64,000 nucleotides of DNA from Hygrocybe punicea (taxonomy: Eukaryota; Basidiomycota; Agaricomycetes; Agaricales; Hygrophoraceae): contig OY744466.1 in NCBI GenBank assembly GCA_963556145.1, forward strand, positions 4,092,001 through 4,156,000, given 5' to 3'. Below, piece by piece: positions 29,412 to 61,410 of this stretch (its first letter is position 1; each line of letters starts with the position of its first letter). The position numbers and the translations under genes are program-made. The notes below the pieces were generated by a model that was not told the DNA's origin, made no database searches, and was given only the letters and a program-made list of their open reading frames with translations.

Positions 29412-30667
29412 TTAGCATCGGTCTATATTCATATTATAGAAGCGTTGCCTTGTTTCCACAACACCCTCTGCATCATTACCCTCTTCCACATACCCAACAT
29501 GCCGTTTGATGGCTATTCTGGGCTGTGTAGTTGGTGTAGGCAAAGCTGTCTTGTTGCGAATCATAGTTGCTTCCTGAGAATATACATCAGTATTCGTTTA
29601 ATTCTTGATGTATTAAAGTGTTACCTCTGTGAAGTCACTGTCTACTAGTGCCAATGACCGTAGATTCAGAATCATCTTGAATTTATCCTTCTTTACCGGA
29701 ACTGCCGATATTGTAAACTGAACCTCCACTATATCACCGATTCTAAAGCAAGTTGGGTTTGTTGGAATGAAGCTAATAAATATTTCCATCAGTAGGGATG
29801 TGATCCCAATTCATCGTCACTCACCAATGTCGATTTCTATCAGACTTCAACTTGTAATAAAGTACGCAATTGTCCTGGCCATGAAAGTAGCGGGAATTCG
29901 CAAGTGAGGTTAATATGCCTTTTGGATCGATGACATACTCGAATGGAATGTGAGAGGAAGTGTTGTCATGTCGGCGATCAGTGAAATATCGGGTTCCTAT
30001 TGCGAGTGCCATGTAATCCATGTATGTAGAAGGCGTAAAAGCTTGCATTGCTTTGTCAGGAAATTGACGAGCCAGTTTCTGGTGCAGAATCCGAAGGTTA
30101 TCGATATAGGATTGAAAGCCCGTTGTATCAAGGCCAGTTACGACTATGCTTTGACGTATGAAGGGCGTTCGGCGTTCTGGTTGACTATTGCAGTGATTCA
30201 TCAGAATGGTATTCAAGGAATTGATACGAATTTAGCACATACCTGGTTGTTATGGGTGGAAGATCTTTCGCCACCAAAATCGCTTGCAAACTTAATACCA
30301 ATTCTTGATGTTCGGATTCATCATTGGTTGGAAGTGTAAACTTCCAGCAATTTGGAGAGTCAACATGCACAATATTGACATTTGCAATCTGGCAATGCGG
30401 TCAATATGATATACCTTTTCAAATCCAATGACTTACGTTTGTGGCCTTCGCAAGCTGACTTTCATCATCGTCTAAGCGTGCAGATATGATTTCCTGCAGA
30501 TGTTCAGCTGTCAATTTGGTGTCAAATACTAGCCAGTATATATATGGTGGATATTGCTAACATGCACCCTTGAAGTTGTAATAGTTGTCCATCACGTACA
30601 AAGCAGTGGTGAGATGTATATTGCGTGGCACAATTTCGTCCACTTCATGGATTATATCTTCCGCCAT
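29412..30667 (-). pseudogene. g3A: family-3 gene of cassette A, start lost
   Basis: Minus-strand exons match g3B one for one: IVHVDSPNCWKF exon, then IDNLRILHQKL...GTRYFTDRRHD exon, then NPTCFRIGDIVEVQ exon, then a C-terminal exon ending in TAA at 29412-29414. The codon aligned with the g3B start ATG is TTA here (30473-30475). The frame continues upstream through PPYIYWLVFD to an in-frame TAG (30557-30559), beyond which a related 36-residue frame begins at ATG 30665-30667. Either the start lies in an unseen exon or the gene is recently disabled. The C-terminal segment (GDIVEVQ, then about 35 mostly beta-type residues) could be an OB-like fold; this is weak inference. Function unknown. Confidence 0.55.
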
Positions 30668-31329
30668 CACCGATCATATCCATATTTGCTTTTGATGTCC
30701 ATGTGATGATAGCTTTCAGGATCCGTTTTGCTTTTGTTTTTGTATTGCATTCTTCAATATTGAAGTTTGCGTCATTTTGCATAATACGGATCCTTTCCAT
30801 GTCTTTCAAATGCACCACATAATGTTGGTTGTCAGCTGTCTGGTTTGGATATGGTATAGTCAAGCATGTACTCCAGCTTTTCCGCATTAATTCTGCATCA
30901 CAGTATATGTGTGCACAGCATTAAAATTAGCCCCTATCCATTATGCATCAATATCCGTTAGTATACCCCATGTTTCTTAATTTGGCATTATGCATTTTTG
31001 TTTTATGAATACCCCTTTTTGTTTAGTCTCCATTCCTAACTTTAATTGAATTTGTCAACAATTCATGAAATCTACCAGTATAAACTTGTGGCGAATATCA
31101 TGTGGACAGTCATCCATTTTTCATGCATACCTTTGCGCTTTGCATGGAGTACATGGCCCAAGAAGCCTCGTTTGGTATATGAGCATGTGCCAATGGTGGA
31201 TCCTCTGATGTTATTGTTGAAGTTTTGGATTCACCGATTCATCTTAAATTCATAGCTTATTGTTTTTGAGTGATTTAAAGCGTGAGTGGAGATGATATCC
31301 ACTATTCCATCAACTTTTACCGCTCTCCA
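30668..31329. other. Relic of the g3 N-terminus plus probable g2A promoter
   Basis: 30668-30890 still encodes, on the minus strand, a fragment (KAKRILKAIITWTS) matching the N-terminal part of g3C (TRGIILRWTQHN). 30900-31329 is AT-rich with no ORF, and presumably holds the start region of g2A. Confidence 0.4.
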
Positions 31330-33377
31330 ATGCCTCCCAAGAAGTCCACCGCCACGAAATCAAACTCGAAAGCAAAATCCAAGGCCACCATGTATGCATC
31401 CCTATTTTACTCGGTATAACTGAAGTTTCTATTGCATGCACTAAAGACGGCCTTCTGCAACAATCGAGAAGCGGAAGAAGGTCATCAAGACTTGGGCTGA
31501 TGATGATATGTATGTGTCATCGTTTTAATCGTTATCTATTTTTGACCAATGGACAGTGTGGCTTTGTCCAATGCTAATGATGATGCCGTCAGTATTCAAA
31601 GCACTGGCAGTGTAATGGCACCGTCAACGCTCACAAGGTATCTATAATCACATATCATTGTTATCCAATATGAGTTAACAAATATCAATATCCTCCTAGG
31701 CATTCCGTCAAGTTTCGCAACGTTAAAGACGTGTTAGTGTTTCAATATCAAATATATCCACCATGATATCAATCTGTTACAGTGGAAAGAAACGTCAAAT
31801 GTCATCTCCCAATGTCACCGACAATGACGACAATGTGTAAATATTTTTCATAGGTATTGTCTCATCATTGACAGGTTATCTATAGTAAAATGCCTTCCCC
31901 CACCAAGAAATTGAAAGCTGCATCTAATCAATCACGAGACGGTGAGGAAGAGGAGGAAGAGGAAGAGGAAGAGGATTACGGTTCTAAGTGAGTTGTTCGG
32001 TTATCATAGACATATCCATTTGTTCAAACAAATCGTTTGACTGTTTAGGCATCGTCGCAAAGTAGCCTTGATGAAGAACCCCGATAAGCCAATTTCGTGT
32101 GTATTTTACGTGCCGATATGAATATTCTCATTCATTAATTGTAACAGCGTTTCTAATACTCCATCCAAGAAGTCGAAGTCCACGAAGGCCATCATGCTCG
32201 ATGATACCGACGATGATAAAGGCTCCAGTGGCGATGAAGGAGATCTGACCTATGCACTGACGCAGATCACCAGGTGTGTTGGATCTTATTACACCGTGGT
32301 GTTTGATGTAGATGTCGTGAATCTAGCTTACCATCTCCGAACGTTGATGAGTCCGATATTGGCACGAGGGATCCTCAACTTGTTGACACCTACCAAGACT
32401 GTGTCAATATCAAGTATGCAATTGCATTTATACCCTTGTCATTTACTCATAACCATTCAGGGCAGCAGCAATGGTATCCTGGTCCAGTGCAATTGGGAAT
32501 GGCAACCCACAGTTCAGTGATATCATCACTGACATCTACAAGATCAACAGAAAGTACGTTATTTGAACAGCAATTTGAGGTCAATTTGGTCGATTCATTG
32601 GATATAATATAGGTTATTGGTTTCTGCCATTACATTTGATAGATCTGGGAGGTACTCTAATCTCTCTCGTGATAACCCTGCCCATATCTCCACTGGTGCA
32701 TTTGGTCGCAACTTCTTTCATGCAGTCGGAGGTGGAATGCCGACGATCTTTACATCGGTCATCATAGTGGAGTCCTGCTTTCTCGATGAGCCCAAGATTG
32801 GTGGCAATACAAAGCCGGTCAAGGTTATACAGGGTGCACTACTTCAAGGGGAATGGGAGCGATATGTTGGTGCTATTGGAATGGTGATTCGCGAGTCCGA
32901 ATTTCGGGCCCAACTGTATAAGGACTATGTGTCCTTCTCAACGACCACAGCAAGTGGAATGGATACATCTCCCAGTTTGTGCATTAATCATTTTTAGTTG
33001 TAATTCCTAATCGATTTTCATAGAGGCATCGACATCCAAAAATGTACAACTTAGTCCATTCACTCGTCGACCCACTCCATCTTATCATAAGGCCGCTCTA
33101 TCATTTTACGATATTGGTAAGCATCCGGTCGTCTAATATAAATTGATATCTTAAGTATGTGTTGTCAGTGCCCATCTATGATGCACGCAAAGTCAAAGCG
33201 GACTTCACGTCCACTCTCATATCGCTCCAGCAACTACCCATCTTCCCGCACAATATCCCTGCAGGATCCTGTGTCGTTGTTGGACACACCATCAATACAT
33301 TCAAGCGTGTAGATGACATGATGAAGAGCATTTCACTCAATGTGCAATGGGTCATGGTCTTGGGAGTGCCGAAATGA
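31330..33377 (+). CDS. g2A: family-2 gene of cassette A, many-exon protein of unknown function
   Basis: ATG at 31330. About 13 exons with GT...AG introns of 45-60 bp can be joined in frame to TGA at 33375-33377. The first eight exons encode short Lys/Ser-rich (PKKSTATKSNSKAKSK) and Glu/Asp-rich blocks, typical of disordered nuclear proteins. The last five encode a conserved, probably globular region of about 320 residues, with the motifs DIYKINRKLLVSAITFDRSG, AFGRNFFHA, SCFLDEPKIGGNTKPVKVIQ, GEWERYVGAIG and CVVVGHTINTFKR. g2B shares all of these. No known domain was recognised. It lies between g3A and g1A, transcribed oppositely to both. It appears intact. Confidence 0.7.
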
Positions 33378-33464
33378 TTGCTCCACTTAGCATCATTTAT
33401 ATTTGTATCTTATGTCTGTTTTGTGAAATAAACGCGAACCGATCCATTGACTGTACAGATAATA

Positions 33465-35287
33465 TTACAAATATGAGTATGGACCTTTGATGTCAATCAA
33501 CCATTTATAGAAAACCCCTGCAAAAGTGTCTGCTAATGAGCCAATGGGTGCTCGAACGGATTTCGGACCTGACTTCATGTTCGACCAGAGGCTGCATGTG
33601 TGATAACGTTCCACCTCGTTCACGAAATAGGACACAGTATCCGTTTTGGAATCCACAATGAGCGATATGTCCATACGGCAAAAAACACTCATCGATGGTT
33701 TTCCACCAACCATATTGGACTCTATCGCATAAAGCCCTTCATAGGTCTTTTGGACAAAGTCGAAGAACTCGTTTCTGCCTTGCTCTCGAATAGAAATGGC
33801 GCCCCTGTCCGGATTGCACGCCACCGTCTTCAATAGAGTCCCCTGCGTTTGAAATATTCTGACAAAGTTAAGACAATCATACATATGAAATGACAAGTGA
33901 AAATGAAGGGCACTCACCTTAACTCATCCAAGGTATAGAAACTTGAGACGATATCCCACTTCCAGGACTTGCTTTCCTTGTTGTACAGGGTGTGCACTGT
34001 ATACACGACCTTTCCACCAACTAGAAACACACGCCATTCGCCCATCTTACTCAGTGGTTCGATGTACGTTTGCCCAAACCAACGTGAACCTGGAACCTCA
34101 CAGTTATTGCGCATGTATTCCCAATTTCGCTTGGCGTCGCCAGGTAATAGGACGTGATGACCGGTGTCGCTGTGTGTCCGTTTCAAGACAATATTTGGTG
34201 GGAATTGGTCGCCATCATTTAATAATTTTGCTTGAGGGCGTATCGTATGCGTTACATTCAAAGCGACATGAAGCAAGTTTTGATTTTGTATCCATTTTGA
34301 ATGGACTGTGTTCATCTGCTTCGGAGGCGGCCAGATGTGTGCCGTTCGACAGAGTTCGTCCATGCCAGTCATGAAAATCGACACATTTTCCAGTGTCAAT
34401 CCGTATTGGTTACCGCTGTCAAGACATCAGTATAATGCAGCGAAAACGGAGCAGAATTAATTAAAGCGATGTCAATCTTACATGTATGACATTCCCATAT
34501 CCACACCACCAAATACACAATCTGCCGATGCGAACTTTTGCCACGTATCGCCTTTGTCTTGATGGCGAAGTATTGCATGAAGGAACTCAGGCCAAAATAT
34601 GTATTTGACATTGAAGCGCCGGGCTCCATCCTCATGATGTAGTCGCATTCCGATATAAACCTGTTTGTTGTGAAATACGTTTCAGTATCAACAATCCACA
34701 AATTAAACAATAGACATTACCCATTCTTGAATACATGCTGAATAGCGACTCTTGTATGACTTGATGATATGGACGTAACCATCAAGATGGGCAATGGTAT
34801 CGAGTTCGATGTCGGATATGGTCGTGGTGACGAATGCAAGATCGTTAATGGCTGCGGCTTTGCTCGCGATACGAGTTGTTGGGTCAAGGATAAAAAGGAT
34901 TTTGAAAACACGGCCGTCATTGTTGCTTAATGTGGTTATACGGCGTTCATTGTTGCTTACGGTGGTTGGCGGTTCCGTTTCACAGTCAGATGATGTTTCC
35001 ATCTCAGAGTCGGATGATAGCCTTTTGCGTGGAAGGAGATCGAGTTCCGCGGCCGTCGCATTGCGGACACCCTGCGAATTTTCACGTATGTTGCGACCAA
35101 GACATACCGACTGCGGACAAATTCCAGACGAAACGCATTTGGGATGTTGGTGTGCGGATCCGACATGTCTTTGGCAGGAGTTGCCTTCCTTCTTCCACAA
35201 AAGACATTTCGTTTTTGGAGAGTCGCATTTTCGACCAGGGCAGATGTGCATGCAAAGTTCATAACCAAGTTCCTTCTTATATGGCAT
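33465..35287 (-). CDS. g1A: family-1 gene of cassette A, Cys-rich N-terminus plus ATP-grasp-like domain
   Basis: Four exons (35287-34721, 34660-34482, 34415-33918, 33858-33465) join to 545 residues. The N-terminal 75 residues are Cys-rich (CMHICPGRKC, CVSSGICPQSVC) and could bind zinc. The C-terminal 300 residues carry an ATP-grasp-like signature: NIVLKRTHSDTG with a candidate ATP-binding Lys, GEWRVFLVGG, then CRMDISLIVD and NEVE with candidate metal ligands. ATP-grasp enzymes ligate a carboxylate to an amine or thiol; no substrate can be named. Not related to any other gene in the window except g1B. It appears intact. The CGAACATG satellite begins about 250 bp upstream. Confidence 0.7.
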
Positions 35288-35539
35288 GTTTGTGGACCTA
35301 GGCAGGATTTCGGATGGATGGTATGAGGAACAGACACAGATATCATTAATACATCAATACCTTAATGATTGATTACTTTCAGGGTGGTTGATAGCGGGTG
35401 GTGACGATTCCACAAACCTTCTAATTATAAGACGTCGGAATTATGTCACCTGACAAGAGTGGCAATGATAAAACAACGAACACGTGCCAAACACGTTGAT
35501 CAGCAATGTAATCATTTAAATGTCTTGAAAGAGCAATAT
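35288..35539. other. Upstream region of g1A
   Basis: Short spacer between the g1A start codon and the satellite array. No feature other than the likely promoter. Confidence 0.35.
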
Positions 35540-36456
35540 CCACCGAACAGATCGGACGTGTTCGGTGTGTTCGGTGTGATATATCTAGTCACAACCGTTG
35601 GTTGACATCCACCGAACATCTCCACCGAACACACCGAACATGTTCGATGTGTTCGGTGTGGTATATCCAGTCACAACCGTTGGTTGACATCCACCGAACA
35701 TCTCCACCGAACACACCGAACATGTTCGATGTGTTCGGTGTGGTATATCCAGTCACAACCATTGGTTGACATCCACCGAACATCTCCACCGAACACACCG
35801 AACATGTTCGATGTGTTCGGTGTGGTATATCCAGTCACAACCGTTGGTTGACATCCACCGAACATCTCCACCGAACACACCGAACATGTTCGATGTGTTC
35901 GGTGTGATATATCTAGTCACAACCGTTGGTTGACATCCACCGAACATCTCCACCGAACACACCGAACATGTTCGATGTGTTCGGTGTGATATATCCAGTC
36001 ACAACCGTTGGTTGACATCCACCGAACATCTCCACCGAACACACCGAACATGTTCGATGTGTTCGGTGTGGTATATCCAGTCACAACCGTTGGTTGACAT
36101 CCACCGAACATCTCCACCGAACACACCGAACATGTTCGATGTGTTCGGTGTGGTATATCCAGTCACAACCGTTGGTTGACATCCACCGAACATCTCCACC
36201 GAACACACCGAACATGTTCGATGTGTTCGGTGTGATATATCTAGTCACAACCGTTGGTTGACATCCACCGAACATCTCCACCGAACACACCGAACATGTT
36301 CGATGTGTTCGGTGTGATATATCCAGTCACAACCGTTGGTTGACATCCACCGAACATCTCCACCGAACACACCGAACATGTTCGATGTGTTCGGTGTGGT
36401 ATATCCAGTCACAACCGTTGGTTGACATCCACCGAACATCTCCACCGAAACATGTC
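35540..36456 (-). repeat. 82-bp palindromic satellite, array 2
   Basis: About 11 near-identical units at exact 82-bp spacing. The unit is the reverse complement of the unit at 5860-6410. Each carries the inverted repeat CACCGAACACACCGAACATG / TTCGATGTGTTCGGTG. Sequence variants (GATATATCTAG against GGTATATCCAG) recur in a pattern close to every fourth unit, pointing to a 328-bp higher-order repeat. The 69-residue ORFs in it are repeat artefacts. Confidence 0.95.
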
Positions 36457-36887
36457 CGGTGACCGAACACACCAAACAACATGTTTGTTGTAGTATATCT
36501 AGTCCTTCTACATCCATCCAACAAGTCAGACTTGTTGTGCTTTTCCGTCAACGGACCAGTCCGTGAATATTCATCGAACGAATTAACTCGATTTATCGCC
36601 TTACCAACTGGAAAATATTCCATACGCTGCACATGTCGGTTTTCTGCGTGCAATTACTAGCTTTGGACAACTTCTAAGCTCGAGCCACATCAAAAACATA
36701 AATAAATAGATCTGTTGTTTATGCATGCAAAGAAGCCGAACATGAGGTCGAACATGTGGCGATTGATCTGGTCACGTGGTCGTGACATCTGTATTCATAG
36801 TCTGGAGCGTTGAGTAATAAATCCGCCCTTTTCTTTTGCTCTCAAATCGCCTCACACGTCGACCAAAAAACTTTTATTTCATCTACC
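36457..36887. other. Upstream region of gene X copy B
   Basis: Tail of the array followed by non-coding DNA with a GCCGAACATG..TCGAACATGTGG motif near 36738. Probable promoter of gene X copy B. No ORF. Confidence 0.4.
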
Positions 36888-38811
36888 ATGTCCTTGCCAG
36901 TCGTCAAAACCTCGACTCCCGCTGTCAATCCCGCCGCCTTCAAGTACTGGCCTGATGCGCCGCCCAAAAAGCTGCAGGAGCTACATCGCATCTTCCAAAT
37001 CCAGTACATGGTCCCGCCCAAGATTCCGGCACCCAACAAGGAATCCGGCACCATTCCCGTATTTTCTCGTAATCTCTATGTACTGAAGACACACCCCCAC
37101 GATGCCACCGCCCGAGGTGAGTTATGGCGCGAAATCCCCGAACGATACGAGGAACCGCTCCGTCGCTTGATTTATCAAATGGATATGTACATCTACGCGA
37201 CAGCAGCCATCGCATACAACAAGGCACCCAACTACTCGCCGGACTACGTCAAAAATGATAAGGAAGGGACCGATTCACTTCGGGATTACCTCAAGTATAC
37301 CGACACCGTCATGGACGAAATTTGGGCAGAAGTCTTGGTGGCGAAACGGGCAAACGAGGTTACCCGTGACTGGCGAAGCAAGATCTTCGATGATTGGCTC
37401 CTGAAAGAATTTTATGTTGGGAAACATTCTCCATCGGCTTTGATTCAACATGGCGCTGTGAACACCGAGATCAAGCCCGAGGATCTAGGTAAGTATATAT
37501 GTATTTATGGCCAAATGAATTCTCACGTCTGGCATCATAGATTGGGCAAAATACGACGAATCCGTGCCAGCATGGCACAGCGGAACCTTGGCAAATTGGT
37601 CATTCGGTGGGCTTCCGGATGCCACAAAGCTCGAGATCATCGGTCATGTTATTGCTTGGTGTAAAGGACATAGTGTCCTCGTCGATTCTGATGTGGCAGA
37701 TGATGATGAAGGTGTGATCTAGAATTACATGTGTGATTGTGCTAATGATATAGTACATTTGCAGAGGAGCCAGTTGCCCAGGGCAAGGGCAAGGGCAAAG
37801 CCAAGTCAAAATCGGTCAAAAAACAGAAGGCATCTTCTGCTGGTTTGTACAAATTTTCAACCATAGTGGTGTATAGATCTATTGAATATTCAGGTGGCGC
37901 AGACAATTCGTCCGAGAAGGACAAAAAGAAGCCCAAGCCCAAGCCCAAGTCCAGTAAGTACTTTCATTGTCTGTGATTGTCATACATGCAAACCCTTCAT
38001 CATGACAGAGCGCACAATCAAGTCCAAAGCCGAGGACGACGATGAGGGTGAGTTATTGAATTCCGAATATCAAAACGATGATCCAACACATTTATTCATG
38101 TATAGACGACATAAAGATGGAGGAGGACGTAGCCCCGGTAAAGAAGAAGCGGTCTAAGGCCCAAATGCGTACGTTGCTCACCTTGTTATGATTAATGCAC
38201 TGACATCTCGCAGTCGCTGTTGAAATTGGGTCGTCGCGCACAACCCGGCAATCGGCATCGGAGAAATTGACAATGGAGATTAAGCCACCCATCGCCCCCG
38301 AGCCGGATGTTGTGGCACCGGAATCCGCGAAGTTGGACATTTTAGGACCAGAGTGGGCGGGGTTGTTGGATGTTGATAATGATATAACCATGGACAACGA
38401 TGACGGATCTCCCGAACCTGAAAAGATGTCTCCCAGCGATGGTCACGAGGATGGCGAGATGGCAAAGAGGAGGAAATTGGATGTTGCTTCGGAGCAAGCG
38501 GGCATTATCGTAGAGAAACTCAACCTGGTGAAGCCACCGAAGAAGTCTCCGACTCCGGGTATGTATTTCAACATTACATCATAGGCTGTATATATTCCAA
38601 TTCTGATCTTCTCCATGTCCTAGGATTCCGTCCCAATACGCGTGCATCGTCACGCCACCAGTCATCGACCCCTGCAGAGCCCAGCGCTTCATCAATGGAT
38701 GTGGATTGGAGCAACATCGTTCCACCCGAAATCCTACTCTCCATTACTCCAAGCCAAACGAGGCCTTCATCTCCCAAGCCATCGACATCCAAACTTGATC
38801 CCGGGCCTTAA
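36888..38811 (+). CDS. Gene X copy B, intact, unknown function
   Basis: ATG 36888-36890 aligns with the start of copy A. Exons: 36888-37488, 37541-37711, from 37765, then several short exons to TAA at 38809-38811. Residues 1-257 are well conserved with copy A and probably globular (WPDAPPKKLQELHRIFQIQY, DYLKYTDTVMDEIWAE, GLPDATKLEIIGHVIAWCKG). The rest is low-complexity: Lys-rich KGKGKAKSKSVKKQK, acidic blocks and a Pro/Ser tail. No family recognised. It lies about 900 bp upstream of Helitron B in the same orientation, as copy A does for Helitron A. It may be a Helitron passenger gene. Confidence 0.7.
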
Positions 38812-39744
38812 TTTTGGAGGAGTAAGTCCTTCTTTTGTGGAGTATTCATTATATTTGACTAAAAAAACTGTATCCCAGTCGTTGATTTCTGGAAACTTGG
38901 TGACAATCTGTGCCCTCAAATGTCCTCCTCATACATCGCTACTATTAACATTTGTACAGTTTCTATATATGTATTTCTTTTTGCTCCGTTAAAAATGGTT
39001 TGTGTTACTGTCCTATGACCATAAGAATTGAGCATGATAGTGAGCATAGATACAGCATAAGGCATCAATCTTGTTGACTGAAAATCTGTTTGTCTAAAAT
39101 ATATCCTGGTGAATGCATTACTTTCAGTTCAGTTGTACAACCACCTACACACTCAACTTGAGAAGGACAACCTGAGATGACTCTCATTCGGGCTAATGAA
39201 AATTCAAATTGAATATATGTAAGAAACCAGAATCACGAACTTTATGGACCTATTAAATGAGGATACAATGATACAAGAGTAACAAAACCCCCTCTTGTAG
39301 TGGAAGATATAACTGTCACTCCAAGGGGAGCTATGACTCTTTGGTACCAGAATAATACAGTATACTTGTGTGGGAATGATACGTACAGCTCCATAAAAAT
39401 GACAATGTATTTCTGACAAGGATGAAGAACAATGATAATTTCCATGAATTACCAAGCAATTGTCAAATATGCACAGTTGTCAAACAGCCTGGTTGTTCAA
39501 CTTCAATACCTGTTTTGTCTGTTGAGCAAGCCAGAAATAAATATCACTGAGACTCTGAAGATTAAATCCACAAAATATCTTAAAAGGGGGTACCATTGTT
39601 CTTCTCAGTCGGTTTGATCAATGTCTTGTCAGCCAGACCCCTAATAAGATCGTAAGGCAGCTATTCATGATACAGATGCATTTTTGGCCTGTATCAAGGC
39701 ATGTCACAGGAACATAGAATGGAATAAAAAAAGTAAACACAGAT
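38812..39744. other. Spacer between gene X copy B and Helitron B
   Basis: Similar to the reverse complement of 17740-18548, without the palindrome seen there. No ORF has support. It may contain the true Helitron promoter. Confidence 0.55.
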
Positions 39745-39899
39745 TTCTAAAGATTCAGGCACGCCTTATGGTGTTTTGGGAAAAGCTTACAAATAATATA
39801 ATGTCATATGATCAATCCCATTGTGTTAATTGTTATTCATGATCCGAACCACTTGACTAGTTAAATGGGCGGTGTTTCCTCTTACTGTCACAAATCCTC

Positions 39900-48388: not shown

Positions 48389-49003
48389 ATGCCCAAATCT
48401 CGCAAGGAAGTTGGCTACGAAGTGTGCCGCCACATCTGTCCAGGACGAAACTGCCTCTCGATGCAGACGCAAACTATCCTCTGGAAAAGGGAAGGAAGTT
48501 CCTGTCAGCGCCATTGTGGATCCGCAAGCAAGCATCCAAATTGCATCGCATCCGGTACCTGTCCTCTATCCAGCTGTATTGGACGGAAGGGCGCAGAAAA
48601 TTCCATAGGTGTTCGAAATGCTACTGAAGAGGAACTCGCGTTGTTGCCATCGATGGCGTCCAATACACCAGATCCCACTTCCCATGTGGAGATGGAGGAT
48701 GCAGCCATGAGCACGATTACACAGTCCGTCAGGACCGATCCCGTTTTCCACATAATCTTTGTTCTTGATCCCACCACCCGTATTACAAGCAAAGCCGCTG
48801 CAACCAATGATCTTGCATTCGTCAACATTACGATTTCACAAGACGAGTACGAAACCATCTCGCACCTCGATGGTTATATTCACAATCTCAAGGCGCACAA
48901 GACGCGATATTTCGTTTGCATGCAGGAATGGGTTTGTATATTTTAAAAATGTATGGAGAATTATCGCTAAAGAATACTTTCCAATTCCAGGTTTATGTTG
49001 CTA

Positions 49004-49559: not shown

Positions 49560-49561
49560 GT

Positions 49562-49572
49562 ATTTTCTGAAC
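49562..49572 (+). promoter_or_regulatory. Self-priming primer-binding site
   Basis: ATTTTCTGAAC, two bases after the 5' LTR, is the exact complement of the 11 nt at 49335-49345. This matches the Tf1/sushi mechanism, in which the first 11 nt of the element's own RNA prime reverse transcription. No tRNA-like TGG site is present. Confidence 0.65.
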
Positions 49573-49605
49573 AACTCTTGAGTCGTATTCCCTTTACATT
49601 TGATC

Positions 49606-50778: not shown

Positions 50779-53700
50779 AGAGCAGTCTGCATACTCCGGC
50801 ACAGGATGTAGGCTGCGTTGAACCTGACTGTGCGCTACCGGAAGTAAAACTCAACGCATCCGCTCTTTCTAACGATTCCTTGACGATTTCTCTTTATCAT
50901 TCTACTACGCTTATCGTTACCCTTGTGGATTGTGGATCGACGCATTGTTTCATTGACCCGGAATTTTGTTCCCTTCACAATCTTCCTATTTTTCCTACTG
51001 CTCCGAAACGCCTCCGCTTGTTTGATGGTTCCTCCGGTGGAATCATCGACAAATGTGTATCTATCTCTGTCCGTTTTTCTACTGGTGAAATTCTAATCTT
51101 AGAATTTTTGGTCACTCCGTTGGATCCGTCTGTTTCCGCAGTTCTTGGATATAGCTGGCTCGCCAAATACAATCCGTTGATTGACTGGGTCGAGCATAGC
51201 GTTAAATTCCGTTCTTCTGATTCCGCGCCTCCGTTGTCGACTCCGGTGCCTAGCGAGGCACCACTTCCGGACCCTCCAGTACGACCTCCGTCCCCTCCGT
51301 CCTCTCTGTCTACTCCGCCTGAACCTTCTTCACCATCCGCTTCGAAGCCTGACATCTCCTTTGTCAGCGCTCAAGCCTTTTTGCGTGGTTGCAAAGTACC
51401 CGGCACTCAGGTCTTCCGTATGGAAGTCCGATTACCTGACGCCACCGGTCGCTCTGCAAGCTACGGCCCTCCGGAGTCCTCCGAACCCTCCGTGGACCTT
51501 CACAATATCCCTGAAGAGTATCACGAATTCGCTGACGTCTTTAGCAAAACGAAGGCTTGGAACCTCCCTGAACACCGTCCTTACGACCTCAAAATTAATG
51601 TGGAGGATGGCGCAAAACCTCCTTTTGGCCCGATTTACTCTATTTCACCCTTAGAGCTCGAGACCCTTCGGGAATTCCTTGACAAGAATCTCCGGGCGGG
51701 TTTCGTCCGCTCCTCCCGTTCTCCCTGCGGAGCTCCCATTCTTTTCTCTCGGAAGAAAAATGGAAGTCTTCGACTTTGCGTAGATTTCCGAGGACTCAAT
51801 CGTATCACGAGGAAGGACCGCTATCCTATCCCTCTTACGGCGGACCTTCTCGACGCTCCCCGGACTGCGCGCATTTACACTAAAATCGACCTTAAACACG
51901 CCTACCATTTAGTCCGGATTGCCGAAGGTGATGAGTGGAAAACAGCTTTCCGCACTCGCTATGGCTCGTTTGAATGGTTGGTAATTCCGGAAGGTCTTAC
52001 TAACGCCCCGGCGGCCTTCCAACACTTCGTCAACGATATTTTTTCCGACCTCCTTGACGTCTCTGTCATTGTTTACCTTGACGACATCCTCATCTATTCC
52101 GATGACCCCGCTGATCATGTAGACCATGTCCGCGAGGTCCTCCGACGACTCCGGAAACACGGCCTCTATGCCAACGCCGAGAAGTGCTCTTTTGGCGTTG
52201 ACACGGTGGAATACTTGGGTTACATTCTTTCCCCCCAAGGCCTTTCTATGGATCCTGCCAAGGTCCAAACTATCCAGGATTGGCCGGAACCCCGGAAGAT
52301 CAAAGATGTTCAATCCTTCCTTGGATTCGCCAATTTTTACCGGCGTTTCATTCCGGACTATTCCTCCATCACTATTCCACTTACCCGGCTCACTCGTAAA
52401 GGGTTACAATGGAATTTCGATGATAAGTGTCGTTCCGCCTTCAATGACTTGAAATCCGCTTTCATTTCCGCCCCAATCCTTTCCCATTGGTCACCCAAGT
52501 TTGACACTCTGGTGGAGACTGATGCTTCCGATTACGCCGTTGCTTCCATTCTCTCCGTACGCCATCCTGACGGTGAAATTCATCCGGTTGCTTTCCGGTC
52601 TCGTACCCTTTCGGACTTGGAGTTGAACTACGATACCCATGACAAGGAACTCCTTGCCATCTTCGACGCTTTCACTGCCTGGCGGCATTATTTGGAAGGT
52701 ACTGCTACTCCGGTCGACGTTATCACCGATCACAAAAATTTGGAGTACTTCTCCACCGTCCGCTTGCTTACCCGCCGTCAAGCCCGCTGGTCGGAGTTCC
52801 TTTCCCGCTTCAACTTTGTTATCCGCTTTCGCCCAGGCAAGCTTGGCACTAAGCCCGATACCCTTACTCGACGCTGGGACGTCTACGCTAAAGGGGGAGA
52901 TAGCGACTACGCCAAAGCCAATCCTCACAATTTCCGCCCTGTTTTTGGGCCGGAACAATTGGCTTCGTCCCTCCGAGCGACTTCCCTCGAAGATGTAGTC
53001 CTTGGCACCGGATTCACCATAGACGTCGATTCCCTTCACTCCGATATCATCTCCGGACTACAGGTTGATCCTATTGCCTCCGGACATGTTTCCCGTACCA
53101 CCTCCGGCCCAGATCCTCGATGGTCTATCGACGATTTAGGTTTTCTACGCCTCGATAATCGTATCTATGTCCCCGATGTCAATGACCTACGACTCCGGAT
53201 TTTGCGTTCCAAACATGATCATCCTACTGCAGGACACTTCGGGCAAAATAAGACTCTCAAAATCATCCGGCGGGAATACACCTGGCCCGGACTCCGGACT
53301 TTTGTCCATGATTACTGCAAGTCTTGCACAACCTGCGCGAGATCCAAAACCCCTCGGCATCGTCCTTACGGATTGCTTAAGCAGCTCCCTATTCCGGAGA
53401 AACCATGGAATTCAATTTCCATGGATTTCATCGAACAACTTCCGGACTCCGAAGGATTTACGGCCATCCTAGTTGTGGTTGACCGTCTTTCCAAGCAAGG
53501 GATCTTTATTCCAACTTACGATACGATTACTTCCCCCCAACTCGCACATCTTTTCCTTATTCACGTTTTTTCTAAGCACGGAGTTCCTAGTCACGTCACC
53601 TCCGATAGAGGCACGGAATTTGTTTCCCATTTTTTCCGGTCTCTCGGAAAGGCCCTCGACATGAAACTCCACTTTACCTCCGGTTATCATCCTGAAGGCG

Positions 53701-54497
53701 ATGGCCAAACGGAACGCGTCAATCAAACCCTTGAGCAATATCTCCGCGTTTATTGCAATTATCAGCAAGATAATTGGTCGTCCCTCCTTCCTCTTGCGGA
53801 ATTTGCTTACAACAACGCTCCAAACGCCACTACCGGAGTTTCTCCTTTCTTTGCCAATAAAGGTTACCACCCTAACCTTTCCGTTCACCCGGAGCGCGAC
53901 CTCTCCTCCGCCCACGCACGAAAATTCGCTGTGGACCTCGATGAGTTACATCAACAACTTCGACAAACCATCTCTGAGGCACAACAACGTTATCAACACT
54001 ACGCGGACTTGAAGCGCGCTCCGCCTCCGAACTTCAAGGTTTCGGATTCCGTCTACGTCAAAGCTGAGCATTTCCGGACTACTAGACCCTCCAAGAAACT
54101 TTCTGAGAAGAACTTGGGGCCTTTTGAAGTTATTGCTAAGGCCGGTACTCACTCATATACCCTCCGTCTTCCGGAGGCTCTCCGCTCTGTTCACCCGGTC
54201 TATCATGTCTCTCAGCTCGAACCGGCGACTCCGAATACCATTCCTAACCGTGTCCAACCTCTGCCTCCTCCGATCGTTGTCGACGGAGAACCGGAGTTTG
54301 AGATCTCCGAAATACTCGATTCCAAGATCGACAACCGCCGTCGTGCTTGCAAGCTACTGTACCTTGTACGTTGGGAGGGCTACGAAGGCACTGACGAAGA
54401 AACTTCTTGGATCTTGGCCTCCGAACTTGGACATGCTACTGAGCTTGTTTCGGACTTTCACTCCGCTTATCCTTCGAAACCGGGCCCGTCCTATTAA
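50748..54497 (+). CDS. pol: Pol polyprotein: protease, RT, RNase H, integrase, chromodomain
   Basis: Open from 50748 in the -1 frame relative to gag, with no ATG near its start, so it is probably made as a Gag-Pol fusion by frameshift. Order: aspartic protease (LVDCGSTHCFID, with Cys where Ser/Thr is usual), reverse transcriptase (FRGLNRITRKDRYPIP, YLDDILIYS), RNase H (ETDASDYAV, THDKELLAI), integrase zinc finger (HDHPTAGHFG with CKSCTTC) and catalytic core (MDFIEQLP, SDRGTEF, HPEGDGQTERVNQTLEQY), and a C-terminal chromodomain (YLVRWEGYEGTDEETSW). Chromodomains in this class direct integration to marked chromatin. All catalytic motifs are intact. Confidence 0.95.
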   Translation, partial: FRFSRGAGKIESSLHTPAQDVGCVEPDCALPEVKLNASALSNDSLTISLYHSTTLIVTLVDCGSTHCFIDPEFCSLHNLPIFPTAPKRLRLFDGSSGGIIDKCVSISVRFSTGEILILEFLVTPLDPSVSAVLGYSWLAKYNPLIDWVEHSVKFRSSDSAPPLSTPVPSEAPLPDPPVRPPSPPSSLSTPPEPSSPSASKPDISFVSAQAFLRGCKVPGTQVFRMEVRLPDATGRSASYGPPESSEPSVDLHNIPEEYHEFADVFSKTKAWNLPEHRPYDLKINVEDGAKPPFGPIYSISPLELETLREFLDKNLRAGFVRSSRSPCGAPILFSRKKNGSLRLCVDFRGLNRITRKDRYPIPLTADLLDAPRTARIYTKIDLKHAYHLVRIAEGDEWKTAFRTRYGSFEWLVIPEGLTNAPAAFQHFVNDIFSDLLDVSVIVYLDDILIYSDDPADHVDHVREVLRRLRKHGLYANAEKCSFGVDTVEYLGYILSPQGLSMDPAKVQTIQDWPEPRKIKDVQSFLGFANFYRRFIPDYSSITIPLTRLTRKGLQWNFDDKCRSAFNDLKSAFISAPILSHWSPKFDTLVETDASDYAVASILSVRHPDGEIHPVAFRSRTLSDLELNYDTHDKELLAIFDAFTAWRHYLEGTATPVDVITDHKNLEYFSTVRLLTRRQARWSEFLSRFNFVIRFRPGKLGTKPDTLTRRWDVYAKGGDSDYAKANPHNFRPVFGPEQLASSLRATSLEDVVLGTGFTIDVDSLHSDIISGLQVDPIASGHVSRTTSGPDPRWSIDDLGFLRLDNRIYVPDVNDLRLRILRSKHDHPTAGHFGQNKTLKIIRREYTWPGLRTFVHDYCKSCTTCARSKTPRHRPYGLLKQLPIPEKPWNSISMDFIEQLPDSEGFTAILVVVDRLSKQGIFIPTYDTITSPQLAHLFLIHVFSKHGVPSHVTSDRGTEFVSHFFRSLGKALDMKLHFTSGYHPEGDGQTERVNQTLEQYLRVYCNYQQDNWSSLLPLAEFAYNNAPNATTGVSPFFANKGYHPNLSVHPERDLSSAHARKFAVDLDELHQQLRQTISEAQQRYQHYADLKRAPPPNFKVSDSVYVKAEHFRTTRPSKKLSEKNLGPFEVIAKAGTHSYTLRLPEALRSVHPVYHVSQLEPATPNTIPNRVQPLPPPIVVDGEPEFEISEILDSKIDNRRRACKLLYLVRWEGYEGTDEETSWILASELGHATELVSDFHSAYPSKPGPSY

Positions 54498-54507
54498 TTC
54501 TGTCTAT

Positions 54508-55362
54508 TTACGATTTTCGCGGACTATTTTCAAGGTTTCCTCCTTTCCCCAAAAAATCCCCCTCTTCCCACTCCGTTTCCGTCTCCTCCGGCGCGATGTC
54601 CTCGGACTCCGGAGTGTACTTCCGGAGCTCGTATGAATTATCTCTGAGGAACTCTAAGTTCCTCAGATGGTCGGCCCATTGAGCCGCATGTTCGCGGAGA
54701 TCCTCCACGGTGTCCCATACCCCCTCGCATGCCTCCGCGACCCGTCCCAACATCGCCGTGTTTTCTTCTGTCGCCCGGAGCAGCTTGTGAAGAAGCTGCT
54801 CCGTCCTCGTCAGCGGTTTCTTTACCGCGGGCTCCACTCCGTGGTACTCCGATCCGGATTCCTCCTTTTCCTCCTTTTTCTTTTTCTTCTTCACTCCACC
54901 CTCTTCACCATCTACCTCGCATCGCGCTTTTCTCTTCTTGCATGCATCGCAACTCCGCGCCTTTCCGGACGCGGGCCACACGCAGTTTTCCCGGCGTTCC
55001 GCGCACGCCTTGCATTGTACGGCCCTGCTTCTATAGTCAACTCCGGTCTTTCATTTATGTGCCTTTGCTTACCCGTCTCTTTTTCTCTTCCCCTTCTCCG
55101 CACTTGAGGGCCCCTCCTCCGCCGCCTCCACTTTCTTTTTCTCCTCCTCCGCCGCCGTTTTCTTCTTCATTTCCTCCTCCACCCTTTTCATCGCCTCCGC
55201 CTGGATCTTCTGTCTCCTCTCCTCTTCCGCCTTCTTCCTCTCGTCCTCCGCTTTTCTCCGTTCTTCTGCCTCCTCTTTCGCCCTCATTTCGGCGAATTCG
55301 CGCTCCATCTCCTTGATGCGCGCGGCTATCTCTTGCGAGGACGATAATTGCGAGGACGACAT
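54508..55362 (-). CDS. Antisense gene inside the gypsy element: coiled coil plus tandem Cys clusters
   Basis: ATG at 55360-55362. Exon 55362-55073, an intron with GTAAGC donor and CTATAG acceptor, and exon 55030-54508 give about 270 residues. Order: a Glu/Lys/Arg-rich coiled coil (about 10-85), a Lys/Arg basic patch, two Cys clusters (CKACAERRENC, then CDACKKRKARCEVD, resembling fungal Zn2Cys6 DNA-binding motifs), another Lys run, and a C-terminal helical segment (LLHKLLRATEEN...DLREHAAQWADHLRNLEFL). It may be a DNA- or RNA-binding accessory factor. It runs antisense to the element, starting about 120 bp before the 3' LTR. Function is inference only. Confidence 0.6.
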
Positions 55363-55469
55363 TTTTTGGGTTGTCTCCTGGCCAGGAGTTTGTTTTATAC
55401 CGTAGGCCCTCCGCTTTGAACTCCGCTACGGTTCTCCCTTTATTCCACAGGCGTCTCAAGGGTTCGACG

Positions 55470-55484
55470 CTAAGGGGGAGATAC
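55470..55484 (+). promoter_or_regulatory. Polypurine tract
   Basis: AAGGGGGAGA (55472-55481) lies immediately upstream of the 3' LTR, where plus-strand DNA synthesis is normally primed. Confidence 0.7.
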
Positions 55485-56040
55485 TGTCATATCCCATGCA
55501 GCTCTGCCGGATTCCGACGAACTCCGCTCCGGACTTTTCCGCCGACTTATCTTATCTTATCTTATCTTATCTTCTCGCGTACGTTATTGTTCTTCTCTTG
55601 TTAATTACTATTCTTCCCCATCTCCGTTTACTCCAACCTCCTTTTCTCTTCCTCCCCTTTGTTTACTTGTCACCGTACATAGCAACCTTTTATCCCTTTT
55701 ATTTTCTTCCGAACTCCGGTCCTCTTTCCGGAGTTCATATTGTCTTCACGTCTCCAAGGACATGACAATTAGTCTACCAAGTATATAAACTAGAACTACA
55801 ATGTCCTGTAACTCCGTTCAGAAAATCAACTTGAGTTCCTTATTTCTTACCCACTCTCAAACTTAAGGCTTTCCCTTAAGCTCATTAGTTATCTTAATAC
55901 TTAGTCCGGAACTCCGGACTAACTCCGCTCCGTCCACGTCTTCTCAATACGACTTAAGGAAGTAGTGAACCTACTTCAAGAGTTGACGTCTCCGCTCCTC
56001 CGAAGAACTCCGATCCTTCCGGAGTTGCACGCCTCTAACA
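55485..56040 (+). repeat. 3' LTR
   Basis: 556 bp, matching the 5' LTR apart from one noticed C/T difference in a CpG context. Followed by the TGCTA target duplication. Confidence 0.95.
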
Positions 56041-57424
56041 TGCTATGCGAATGCACCACTGGCGGTGTGACGAGCCCAACAGTGCAATACGCCGCTTCAA
56101 TGTTGAATACATGTTTTGGCCGGAGTTCGCTCATGCCATGCTCAACTCACCGGGGTCGAACATAACATGGAATAAGTTCAAATCCACCGATTGCGTATTT
56201 GGTGGTGTGGACATGGGAATGTCCTATATGTAAGCGTGTCAAACATTTTTGCTGAGTTTCCTTTCTTTTTAATTCGGTTAATTCGAATGTCATCTATAGT
56301 GGTAATCAATATGGTATAACGGTCGAAAACGTGTCGACATTCTTGGCCGGAATTGACCAGCTGTGTCGAACGATTCAGGTGTGGCCACCACCGAAACAAA
56401 TGAACACCGTGCATTCGAAATGGACGCAGATGCAAAACTTGCTCCATGTCGCATTGTCAAGGACGCACACGATGCGACCACAATCAAGGCTGCTGAAGGA
56501 CGGTGAACCGTTTCCACCAAACATTGTTTTGAAGCGAACGCATAGTGACACCGGTCACCATGTGTTGTTCCCGGGCGATCCAAGGCGGAATTGGGACTAT
56601 ATGCGCCTGAACTGTGAGGTCCCCGGTTCACGTTGGTTCGGTCAAACCTATGTTGAGCCACTGGCCAAGATCGGAGAATGGCGAGTGTTTTTGTTAGGTG
56701 GAAGGGACATTTACACGGTCCATACGCATTACAACAAAGAGAGCAAATCATGGAGGTGGGATATTGTGACGACCTTCTATACGTTGGAGGAATTGAGGTA
56801 GGCAGATGCCCTCCGTCTCGCATTACATGTTCACGAGTTTTTGGCATTTTCCAAGATCGTTCCAAGCACAGGGAATGCTCATGAAGACCGATGTTTGCAA
56901 TCCGGATCACGGCTCCATTGCAATTCGAGATCAAGCAAGACAGCAATTCTTCGGCTTCGTACGAGACACCTACGAGGGGCTGTATGCCATAGAGTCGACG
57001 TTGATTGGTGGGAAACCTTCAATGAGTGTATTCTGTCGCATGGACATTTCGCTCATTGTTGATTCAAACACCAACAATGTCAATTACTTCGTGAACGAGA
57101 TTGAATGGTATCACACCTGCAGCTTGTGGTCCAACATGAAGCAAGGCGCGAAATCCGCTCGGGCACCAATCGGATCTTTTGCGGACACATTTTCGGTGGT
57201 ATTTTATAAATGGCTTGTAGACATTACAAATGCATACTCATATTTTTGAACTTCACTTGTACATTAGTCAACTTTAAATGTCACAAATCGGATCTCATGT
57301 CTGAGAGGCACGAAACGCTTTGATTTCAATGATAGGTACATTACAAATTCAAGGCAACATAAAGAGAATTGGCAATAGGCCACGCTGCATGGCACACTAG
57401 TTTCATGATGAGAAAGACGACAAG

Positions 57425-59444
57425 TTAATGAGAGACGCCCAATACCATCACCCACTGCACATTTAGGGAAATACTCTTCAACAAATCATCAGAGCGTTTG
57501 AAGGTATTGATCGTGTGGCCGACCACAATGCACGATTCTGCAGGAACATCACCTGGAAAGTGGGGGAGTTTCTGAAGTATTTTGAGGGTGTCGGTAAAGT
57601 CCGTTTTAACTTTCCGGGCATCATAGATTGGGACTATGAATACAGGCATCAAAAACGAAACCAAGGACATTGTGTGAGAGAGAATAAAACTAACCAATGT
57701 CATGGAATGACAGCGCAGTCTTTTGGTAAGATGGAGCGGGACGTCGAGTAAAAGGACTAGACTGCATGAATTTCGAAGAGGAAGCTTCTATTGAATATGA
57801 GTAAGGATTGATAACAGAGCATTGAATGTATACTCACTGCTAGGAGATGCATCCATCCCACTTGCCGCTGTCATCAAGAAGGACAGAAAGTCCTTATATA
57901 GTTGTGCACGAAATTCCGCCTCACCAGTGACCATTCCAATGGCGCCAACATACCGCTCCCATTCTCCTGAGAGTAAAGCCCCTTGGATGACTTTGATCGG
58001 TTTCGTGTTCCCACCAACTTTTGGCTCATCAAGGAAGCATGAATCGACTAGAATGACAGAAGTGAAGATCGTTGGGATGGCACCAGCAATGGAGTGGAAG
58101 AAACTACGCCCAAATGCTCCAGTAGAGATATTGGCGGGATCATCACGAGAAAGATTCGAGTACTTGCCAGATCGAACAAAGGTCACTGCAGAGAACAGCA
58201 AACTGTTATGCGATGTGAATTGTCTTTAACCATAAAGTCCTAGCTGACAGCTTACTTTTGGTTGACCTTGCGAATGTTGCTGATAACATCGCTGTACTGA
58301 GGATTGCCATTCCCTATAGCACTAGACCAAGATACCATGGCCGCGGCCCTATTCAATATTAAGCATTGCTTAAGAAGATAAAACCGAATAGTTACTTAAT
58401 GTTGACACAGTCCTTATATGTATCGACCAACTGAGGGTCTCTTGTACCAATGTCGGACTCATCCGTGTTTGGAGAGCGTATGCTAAGCAAGGACATCAAT
58501 TAAAAAAATAATAGACAGATGTAATGTACCTGGTGATTTGGTTTTGTGCATATGTCCAGCTCCATCATCGCTACTGGAAACATTGTCGTCACTGATATCA
58601 TGAAGACGGGTAGTCTTTGTGACTTTGGAGGAAATCGCCTTCATGGTTTTGATGGATGTATCAGAGTTGCTGATCATTTATTAATATATGAAGGACAAGA
58701 ATCATATGAAGTATCATACCGAAGACCATTATCTGCATTTGATTTCTTAGAACCGAATTCGAGTTTTGCGATAGGCCTACGACATGTCTAACATATGACC
58801 AATTATTCAATTTCCAACTCACATGAATGTTTCGTCGCTGTCGTCATCCTCATCATGTAATTGATGCTGGTTTGACTTTGTCTTCTTCGATGGAGAAGAG
58901 AATTTACTATGTAAAGCGATTAAAGAATACACAAATATAAAAGACATTATTTAGAGCTACTGACCTGTCTTCATCTTCCTCTGAAGCATGCCGCCTTTTA
59001 CCGCTGAATATAAAGAATATTAGTTTGCATGAACAGTATAAATTGAACTTGCAAACCTTGCTCTATTGGTGGTCTTCCTGGACCGCCTATATTACTGAAG
59101 TAAATCACTAGTATCTGAAAATACAATTCATGAGACACACCTCATAGACGAGACGGGTTTGGCAATGCTAGCGATGCTATGAACACTAATAACGTCTTCG
59201 TCTTCGGAGTTGGCAATACTACTGGGTGGTTTAGTCATGGTGGATGAATCAGAATATTGGAATAAACACGTACACTTCATCATGGACAGGCTTGGTGGTG
59301 GTGACCTTCTTACCCTTCCTAGAAACAACAGTATGACCTTTATTCAGAATGAGCAGCAATACATGAAAATAAATATACATACGAAACGGCGCTTGATCGA
59401 GCTTTGGACTGAGTCTTCACATTCACAGACTTCTTAGGGGCCAT
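57425..59444 (-). CDS. g2B: family-2 gene of cassette B
   Basis: ATG at 59442-59444 (MAPKKSVNVKTQSKARSS), stop TAA at 57425-57427. Many small exons encode basic and acidic blocks (SRKGKKVTTTKP, NSEDEDVISVHS). They are followed by the conserved C-terminal region: FVRSGKYSNLSRDDP, AFGRSFFHS, SCFLDEPKVGGNTKPIKVIQ, GEWERYVGAIG, VVGHTINTFKR, ending VMVLGVSH. It matches g2A end to end. It is antisense to g1B and g3B, with only 175 bp between its stop and the g1B stop. Exon boundaries in the N-terminal half are approximate. No known family; a nuclear location is inferred from the basic blocks. Confidence 0.65.
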
Positions 59445-60348
59445 TGCAAAGATAAGAGCTTTAGGGCAAGGAATGAATCTGTGCGAGATATCGTAGATGA
59501 ATGAAGGGTCGGATGTGGACGATACCATTGCGCTCTCATCGCTATTTAAGTACACTGAGACAGATCGAATACAATAAAGAACTCGTTTATGGAGATCACA
59601 CCGGCAGGTATGAAAACTACATCTGTTGATGGTTTGAAGGAGAACTATTCGGATCATAGCGCCATAAAAATGAAAAAAAATCAGGGACATTCCCCATGAT
59701 GTAGAACCCATGATTGACCAGCTGTTACGCTCAGCATCATCCAACAACATGGATATGGATTACTGGTATGGAGAATAATCAAACACTAAGTCTAATTAGG
59801 ATTTTGGAATGTAGAACAGCTGTCACCACATGGAACTGATCATAAGATCATAACACAGCCAAATCGGAAATAGAAGTTTATGTGACATATATACTCATTT
59901 CCAAACAAATACAAACATCGGATCAACTATACTGACAGTTGCATCGGAAACAAATCATTCTGAATGGATAGGGGTTTCCTTTTAATGCTGTACAATAAGG
60001 AGGTCAAGCATTACGATAGCTGTCGATGTATATCCTGTCCTATAAAATGGAGAAAAACAATAAGAATCTATTAAGAAGATCTGCAACACAAGAATGCAAA
60101 CACCATACAGACATCACAAGTTCATGGAGGATGAACATGATGCACTGCCATAATCTCGATGACGATCGAAAACGATTCATGATAAAACAGTCGAAATTTG
60201 CGTTTGAATTATAAATCCCACTTCCACTTTGCAAATGGACACCTATTACGATTTCAAAAGCGCATGTCAGTCCATATACCACTGAAGGCATTCATACATT
60301 CAACTCTACTTTACAGCTGAACATTTAAGTAATCTCATATCGACACAG
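59445..60348. other. Bidirectional spacer between g2B and g3B with g3 relics
   Basis: Holds the probable divergent promoters of g2B and g3B. From about 60150 the plus strand retains fragments (MDTYYDFKSAC) equal to the upstream frame of g3A (VMDNYYNFKGAC), so family 3 once had a longer N-terminus. No other feature. Confidence 0.45.
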
Positions 60349-61410
60349 ATGGACAATGATGACAGTCAACTCGCCAATGCTACAAATGTACGTTCAAATT
60401 TTACGATGTATGCTGTGTTTCATTACATTTGCAGATTTCGAATATCAATGTAGTTCATAATGACTCACCAAATTGCTGGAAACTTACACAGCCGAGTACT
60501 GATACCACCGAGCATGAAGAACTTGTCTTAAGCTTACAGGCGATATTGGTGGCCAAAGACCTACCACCAATCACCAGCAGGTATATTGTTCCATCACATA
60601 AATCGTAAACAATTGATATACATATATTTTCCAGACCACCCGAACGTCGAACACCATTTCTTTGTCAGAGCATCCTTATAGCAGGTCTCAACATACCACT
60701 GTTCGAATCGTACCTTGACAACCTCCGCATCTTACATCAGAAACTGGCCCATACTTTCCCAGAACGTGCAATGCTGGACTTCACGTCATCCACCTATATC
60801 GAATACACTGCATTATCTATTGGCACCCGATACTTCACCGATCGCCGACATGACAATGTTTCATACCATATTCCATTCGAACACAACGTCGATCCCAAAG
60901 GTATCCTGTCATCCATGAGCAATACTCGATACTTCCATGGGACAGATAATGAGGTCCTTTATTTCAAGTTAACATCAGATGGAGGCCGGCATTGGTGAGT
61001 GCTCAGCACAACAATAGTTTGACCATCGATAATGATATAGATGACAGCTTTGTACCTGCCAGTCCAACTTGCTTCAGGATTGGTGACATTGTAGAAGTCC
61101 AGATGACGGTATCGGCGGTTTCAGTCAAGAATGACAAATTTAAGATGATACTCAATCTGCGCTCATTAGCACTGGTCAACAGCGAGTTTACCGAGGTACC
61201 AGACATATCTAATAATTCAATTAATAATAACTAATGTACATCCAGAATGCGACGATAGGTCGAACGAAGGCACCTCATCCTGCTCTCAATACTATGACCA
61301 GGATTAATATCAAACGTAATGTGGGTTATGTCCAGTTGACAGACGATGGTGAAGATGTCATAGAAACCCGAAGACGTTTGACCAACCTGAGGATGAATGA
61401 AGCCGATTAA
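60349..61410 (+). CDS. g3B: family-3 gene of cassette B, intact, unknown function
   Basis: Five exons: 60349-60387, 60435-60580, 60635-60994, 61048-61195 and 61246-61410, giving 285 residues with every intron GT...AG. Motifs conserved with g3A and g3C: VVHNDSPNCWKL, LQAILVAKDLPPI, LDNLRILHQKL, GTRYFTDRRHDN, DPKGILSSM, CFRIGDIVEVQ, FKMILNLRSLALV, and a C-terminal RNVGYVQLTDDGED. The GDIVEVQ...KMILNLRSLAL segment is beta-rich and could be an OB-like nucleic-acid-binding fold, which is a guess. The start is probably a shortened one, since the older family form extends further N-terminally. It neighbours g2B divergently. Confidence 0.7.

Follow-up and report, generated by a model that had tools for sequence, protein, structure and literature searches.

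Here, we describe a 64,000-nucleotide stretch of the Hygrocybe punicea genome (GCA_963556145.1, contig OY744466.1, positions 4,092,001 to 4,156,000 of the forward strand; hereafter the window), in which three genes, g1, g2 and g3, occur twice in mirror image and are not a free-standing cassette but make up the 5' half of a Helitron that is 19-23 kb long. The first trio consists of g3A (29412..30667, minus strand, six predicted exons, 333 amino acids), g2A (31330..33377, plus strand, 12 predicted exons, 470 amino acids, the weakly conserved 5' exons being uncertain) and g1A (33465..35287, minus strand, four predicted exons, 545 amino acids, with a Cys-rich N-terminus and an ATP-grasp-like domain). 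The second consists of the predicted genes g1B (48389..57249, plus strand, four exons, exon 2 being split by a long terminal repeat (LTR) retrotransposon), g2B (57425..59444, minus strand) and g3B (60235..61410, plus strand). Briefly, the models come from a custom gene finder based on splice signals, codon use and A/B conservation, which reproduced a hand-built g1 model exactly. The original prediction, made from the letters of the window, had recognized the trios at 29412-35287 and 48389-61410 as mirrored homologues, and both the gene models and a profile scan bear this out: the g1, g2 and g3 proteins of A and B share 64-68% of their amino acids, and the homology is beyond chance, with E values down to 5e-95 (g1 exon).

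Each trio lies inside an element with its own ends. Alignment of three sites in the window gave sharp termini, 5' TACGAGTCCCTATAAGGGAATCG and 3' TGCCATGCAAAGCAATGGCCCACACCCCACTAG. Element A (27437..47714, plus strand) is a complete Helitron of 20.3 kb that runs from 5' TACGAG to 3' CTAG; element B (9778..63549, minus strand) has its 5' end at 63549 and its 3' end at 9778 and is interrupted by element A, by the LTR retrotransposon and by a 6.4-kb foldback insertion. The gene order common to A and B is 5' end, g3(-) g2(+) g1(-), open reading frames ORF4 and ORF5, Rep/Pif1 transposase, 3' end. The trios are mirror images because element A sits inside the oppositely oriented element B, which rules out the inverted duplication of a cassette that had been proposed. 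In four other B-type loci (L002-L005), the site is unoccupied by A; it falls within repeats on the side of g1 that faces ORF4. Element C (5342..8357, plus strand) is a 3.0-kb derivative whose A/B-like ends align with those of the other two and which carries no cassette; a homology search of positions 1-9777 found no g1, g2 or full transposase in it, and it is probably non-autonomous.

The transposase is the last gene before the 3' end of the element. In A, a first frame (39861..44108, plus strand) contains DUF6570 and Helitron_like_N, with HLHM (residue 970) and YITDY (residue 1160) as candidates for the HUH and Y2 motifs, and a second frame (44112..47642, plus strand), separated from the first by one stop codon, contains the PIF1 helicase, followed by a C-terminal part whose motifs are thiol-protease-like. 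The transposase of B (9853..17625, minus strand) consists of the frames 17625-13387 and 13383-9853 with the identical single stop between them. Two profile matches are above cut-off, Helitron_like_N (9.1e-33) and PIF1 (7e-21). The stop seems to be damage that these copies have suffered, since a single open frame of 2588-2610 amino acids is found in 35 of the 150 transposase copies listed in the genome census below. At the C-terminus (46659-47642), the sequences WSCAYDS and DAHF recall a thiol protease of the deubiquitinase type, a resemblance limited to the motifs; the Asp-x-His motif reads DAH in A and B and HAH (HAHF) in a further element, D, described below, and the C-terminus, viewed as a candidate thiol deubiquitinase (VTD/OTU/USP), has no Pfam or Protein Data Bank (PDB) match.

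Element ends and copies were studied in this same genome (92.2 Mb, 42 contigs). The gene matches listed, to which all copy counts in this text refer, are the best 150 of 231 candidates for the g1 exon, 669 for Rep, 352 for the g3 exon and 291 for the g2 exon, and the ends were searched with up to three mismatches, 100 places of each end being listed. Genome-wide, the 5' pattern has 281 matches and the 3' pattern 358, while the reversed patterns used as control have 0. The element has more than a hundred copies in the genome: there are at least 150 g1 exon matches, and the listed ones are spread over 13 contigs. Among the matches listed, the genes keep a fixed spacing in 125 of 150 cases for g3-g2, 99 of 150 for g2-g1 and 107 of 150 for g1-Rep (opposite-orientation control 0, 0 and 4, respectively). 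A listed 5' end stands on the correct side within 40 kb of 61 of the 150 listed g1 matches (orientation control 8), and on contigs C1-C3 a listed 3' end accompanies 46 of 53 (control 4). Among 68 Rep matches with a listed upstream 5' end, all three genes lie in between in 51 and one or two of them in 14. Many listed copies are alike: 33 g1 matches reach the score of window A, and 40 g2 and 32 g3 matches are at 100%. That the trio moves as a unit and recurs at scattered places, as had been suspected, is thus well borne out; that it is the core of a large transposon also stands, but the transposon belongs to a known class, the Helitrons, and its transposase lies within the window.

Within the stretch covered by listed 3' ends, 37 of 42 listed 5' ends could be paired with a 3' end no more than 60 kb away. 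The paired elements measure 3.0-5.0 kb (five), 18.0-21.4 kb (18), 23.6 kb (one) and 26-40 kb (13), the last of which we take for copies with inserts or for mispairings. In most paired copies the distance from the 5' end to the g1 exon is fixed at 6.2-7.0 kb. This constancy tells against reading g1-g2-g3 as a separate transposon that inserted into the Helitron, an idea to which the close spacing of the genes at one end of the element might lend itself. Element D reorders the genes within the same ends, and no extra terminal repeats were noticed around the trio, though no dedicated search for them was made; the idea is already disfavored and we give it next to no credence.

Insertion sites were inspected for ten of the paired elements, of which, going by g1, seven are A-type and three are B-type. 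At all ten, a T stands before the 5' end and a T after the 3' end, with no consistent longer duplication; two of the ten sites match over three bases, maybe by chance. Shared ends and target duplications had been named as features to look for, and the common ends are well defined, while the shared target sequence amounts to the T only. The base before the first T is A in six and G in four of the sampled insertions, and the A-less site in other B copies has a single T. Two of the sampled elements lie inside other copies, one in g2 and one in an intron of g1, and could be compared with uninterrupted relatives as well, by eye only.

The element is a Helitron by its Rep (HUH, Y2) and Pif1-type helicase combined in one transposase and by the lack of a longer target site duplication. 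The known subclasses compare as follows. As in Helitron1, the 3' end reads CTAG (CTRR) and has a predicted hairpin 15 nt before it; unlike Helitron1, which starts with TC and inserts between an A and a T, the 5' end reads TACGAG and the preceding base is A or G. As in Helitron2, hairpins are predicted near both termini of A (folds of -7.8 and -5.4, given here without a shuffled control). As a candidate for the asymmetric terminal inverted repeat of Helitron2, a 5' stretch of 11 nt has an inverted counterpart 46 nt from the 3' end; A, B and C match at 9, 8 and 9 of the 11 positions, equaled by 42, 484 and 32 of 5000 shuffles, respectively. As regards Helentrons, which have an AP-type endonuclease domain and insert in TT, no endonuclease family was found in either transposase frame, and the A-less site shows a single T.

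Several other features belong to the elements or interrupt them. ORF4A (36888..37661, plus strand, 258 codons from MSLPV) has no Pfam family and the open frame ORF5A (38204..38581, plus strand) no family above cut-off; 82-bp tandem repeats (35454..36573) lie between g1A and ORF4A. Their counterparts on the minus strand, ORF4B (26961-26129) and ORF5B (19145-18774), together spanning 18774..26961, are separated by the 6.4-kb insertion at about 19602-26037. In this insertion, 34-bp tandem repeats form two long arms, inverted relative to each other and 98-99% alike, on either side of a simple-repeat center; it has the ends TACAGTAGACCC...GGGTCTACTGTA and is foldback-like. The LTR retrotransposon that splits exon 2 of g1B (49004..56040, plus strand) has 556-bp LTRs that are 99.8% identical, a 5-bp target duplication (TGCTA) and long gag-like (398 codons) and pol-like (1249 codons) frames; its insertion is recent.

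The two halves of the element differ greatly in divergence. For the cassette genes, A versus B gives a proportion of synonymous differences (pS) of 0.73-0.79 and a nonsynonymous divergence (dN) of 0.22-0.26, and g1 of B versus D gives a synonymous divergence (dS) of 1.33 and a dN of 0.15, by a simple Nei-Gojobori count that is unreliable near saturation. In all three genes, synonymous sites are saturated or dS is 1.3 or more, and the proteins are under strong constraint (dN 0.15-0.26). Over the rest of the A and B elements, dS is 0.38 in ORF4, 0.045 in Rep and 0.010 in the helicase, so that A-B similarity rises toward the 3' end. The first 59 Rep matches listed all have 100% protein identity over 200 amino acids, and 38 of them stand beside an A-type and 10 beside a B-type g1. 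Since A lies inside B, one may ask whether local gene conversion between nested neighbors, and not a family-wide exchange, made the two transposases nearly identical. We regard this as very improbable: over a 1.5-kb piece of Rep DNA, six A-type copies (that of the window and five more) match five of six further B-type copies (C1, C3, C34) at 97.8-98.6% identity, and mosaic cassettes exist at eight other places. The sixth B-type copy (C33:3290753; L057, G000:C33:3298267-3299766) has an identity of only 91-93% with every A and B copy over the Rep piece; it could be mutated or belong to an older lineage.

The mosaics emerged when cassettes were typed by identity in the 91 g2-centered sets that have all three genes among the matches listed: 68 are A-A-A, 15 B-B-B and eight mosaic, all eight with B-type g3 and g2 and an A-type g1, the reverse kind occurring in 0 of 91. 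Element D (C8:2239396-2262401, L051-L053) has ends of the A/B type, an open transposase of 2610 amino acids and the order g1(-) g3(-) g2(+) ORF4(+); its Rep differs from that of A by a dS of 0.46. Beside its intact g1 lies a second, degraded g1 fragment (L051 1157-1455, minus strand), possibly a trace of how g1 moved. Elsewhere on the same contig, two D-type g1 exons with identical scores, G000:C8:1614616 (plus) and C8:1617062 (minus), stand opposed 2.4 kb apart, and a D-type g2 accompanies each of them at a distance of 7-14 kb; this looks like a head-to-head pair of elements. The gene set is retained, while gene versions and gene order are variable; the earlier view that gene order is kept holds for A and B but not for D (g1 g3 g2), and the eight mosaics show that partnership is not strict either.

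Taken together, the mosaics and the near-identical transposases place breakpoints between g2 and g1 and also close to where the transposase gene begins, and ancient cassette divergence alongside a shared transposase indicates that gene versions and transposase were exchanged between elements. The exchange may proceed by recombination from copy to copy or by a switch of template in replication. It is conceivable, and we put this forward tentatively, that the family is one of exchangeable parts, in which the transposase half sweeps through the family while old versions of a helper cassette (a RimK/GshB-like ligase and two new protein families) coexist and recombine. Such coexisting, recombining versions would be expected of genes that counter or recognize something in the host, e.g., the silencing of foreign DNA.

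Of the three proteins, g1 offers some clue to its biochemistry and is probably a RimK/GshB-like ATP-grasp ligase, judging by its sequence; the resemblance to ATP-grasp had been pointed out before and is upheld by sub-threshold profile matches and conserved residues. Five g1 sequences, those of A, B and D plus two from databases at 45-48% identity, share the invariant residues K-R-T-H-S-D, G-E-W-R-V-F, R-x-D-I and V-N-E, which are candidates for ATP- and metal-binding in the manner of ATP-grasp enzymes. GSH-S_ATP is matched by three of the five sequences (best 0.0038) and RimK by one (0.018), and among NCBIfam models RimK is matched at 0.0084 and glutathione synthase at 0.011. The g1 protein is like the RimK and glutathione synthetase (GshB) ligases in weak matches over the ATP-binding part and in conserved candidate residues of the expected type; it is unlike them in staying below each curated cut-off and in its N-terminal part, where Cys and His are densely spaced.

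When g1, g2, g3 and the transposase C-terminus were compared with the sequences of the PDB, no match rose above chance level. Relatives of g2 and g3 occur in unnamed sequence sets, and those of g3 additionally in Pluteus cervinus and Cytidiella melzeri, a distribution that by itself suggests a host within the Agaricomycetes; no relatives were confirmed in virus contigs (g1, g3) or prokaryote genome contigs (g1). An AlphaFold model of g3 from seven sequences has a mean predicted local distance difference test score (pLDDT) of about 40, too low for a fold search. An OB-fold for g3 was considered and dropped, one of seven members matching OB_MEIOB_N (E 0.022), which is a hint only. A third, degraded copy of the cassette had also been proposed. 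Its g3C (1991..2908, minus strand) is real but distant (30-34% identity, E 4e-28) and lies outside elements A, B and C; its g2C at 8.7 kb was found neither by tblastn of both g2 proteins against positions 1-9777 (E <= 0.1) nor by a profile of g2 run on the window in all six frames (E <= 1).

Our best explanation, with a probability of roughly 65%, is that the trio, which makes up the 5' half of this Helitron with its own Rep/Pif1 transposase, is likely a helper module, in which g1 is a predicted ATP-grasp ligase that would join a protein with an amino acid or a peptide. The helper role is suggested by the protein constraint together with the co-occurrence of the genes. By the class of its transposase, the element would be copied by the rolling-circle mode; g1 would be catalytically active, RimK/GshB-like and equipped with a metal-binding N-terminus, g2 and g3 may work together with g1 or with the transposase, and the target of g1 could be a host protein that restrains the element. 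The products may also serve copies without the genes, such as the 3-kb element C with its matching ends. Nothing supports the defense role that had been raised as another possibility.

Please note that several observations weigh against this explanation. Three of the 68 Rep-bearing elements have no cassette gene among the matches listed, and the mosaics show that g1 is separable from g2 and g3. Both transposases in the window carry the stop, g1B is interrupted, and several copies elsewhere have stops as well. Every ATP-grasp match of g1 falls below the curated cut-offs, a PDB profile search with g1 returned no ATP-grasp chain, and the AlphaFold model of the g1 domain is poor (pLDDT 39.6 with five sequences). 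No known family was matched by g2 or g3, and neither has an assigned function.

Gene capture by Helitrons is known, and the trio might simply be captured host genes that travel as passive cargo without benefit to the element. A host orthologue could lie beyond the 150 matches listed per gene, and Pleurotus Helitrons are reported to carry captured genes of unknown function (PMC4289320). Cargo should, however, decay and vary, whereas versions A, B and D all keep three coding genes with dN far below dS, despite the changed order in D, and most Rep matches with a listed 5' end have the complete trio in between. We therefore consider passive cargo unlikely and return to the helper module as the preferred explanation.

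Helitrons are best known as a transposase with random captured fragments. In the family described here the class is known, and its size, conserved gene set and mosaic structure set it apart as a variant. A Helitron with an ATP-grasp gene or with such a cassette was not found in the literature searched, most subscription papers being outside its scope. A large, recently amplified family of this kind reveals which extra genes a Helitron retains and how they are reshuffled, the genes and the transposase having separate histories. The substrate of the ligase-like g1 could reveal how fungi restrain such elements, and relatives in mushroom genomes that are named only hypothetical proteins (g3 in Pluteus and Cytidiella) may be transposon genes.

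The FoHeli elements of Fusarium oxysporum are of the Helitron2 type, FoHeli1 being about 6-7 kb long with insertion at TTTT-T or TNAT-T, and fungal Helitrons can have asymmetric terminal repeats (PMC5148889). The Hygrocybe element is like FoHeli in its Rep-Pif1 transposase, its candidate 11-nt inverted repeat (8-9 of 11), its predicted end hairpins and its short derivatives with the same ends, and differs in its length of 19-23 kb, its conserved three-gene set, its 3' CTAG and its insertion at R-T. With HELPO1 of Pleurotus ostreatus (PMC4289320), compared by description, it shares a mushroom host, extra genes of unknown function and a CTRR-type 3' end; the HELPO1 Helitrons considered here measure at most 13.7 kb and have the extra genes downstream of RepHel, whereas our element is larger and has them upstream, in its 5' half. 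Some animal Helitrons carry deubiquitinases of the VTD family (PMC9741609), which the Cys and His motifs after the helicase recall, but here there is no Pfam or PDB match and the Asp-x-His motif is HAH in D. TET/JBP genes ride fungal DNA transposons, including Helitron1 and Helitron2, and have been proposed to counter silencing (PMC12730594); the likeness is that of an accessory enzyme gene on a fungal DNA transposon, and the difference is that the genes carried here are an ATP-grasp-like gene and two unknown families.

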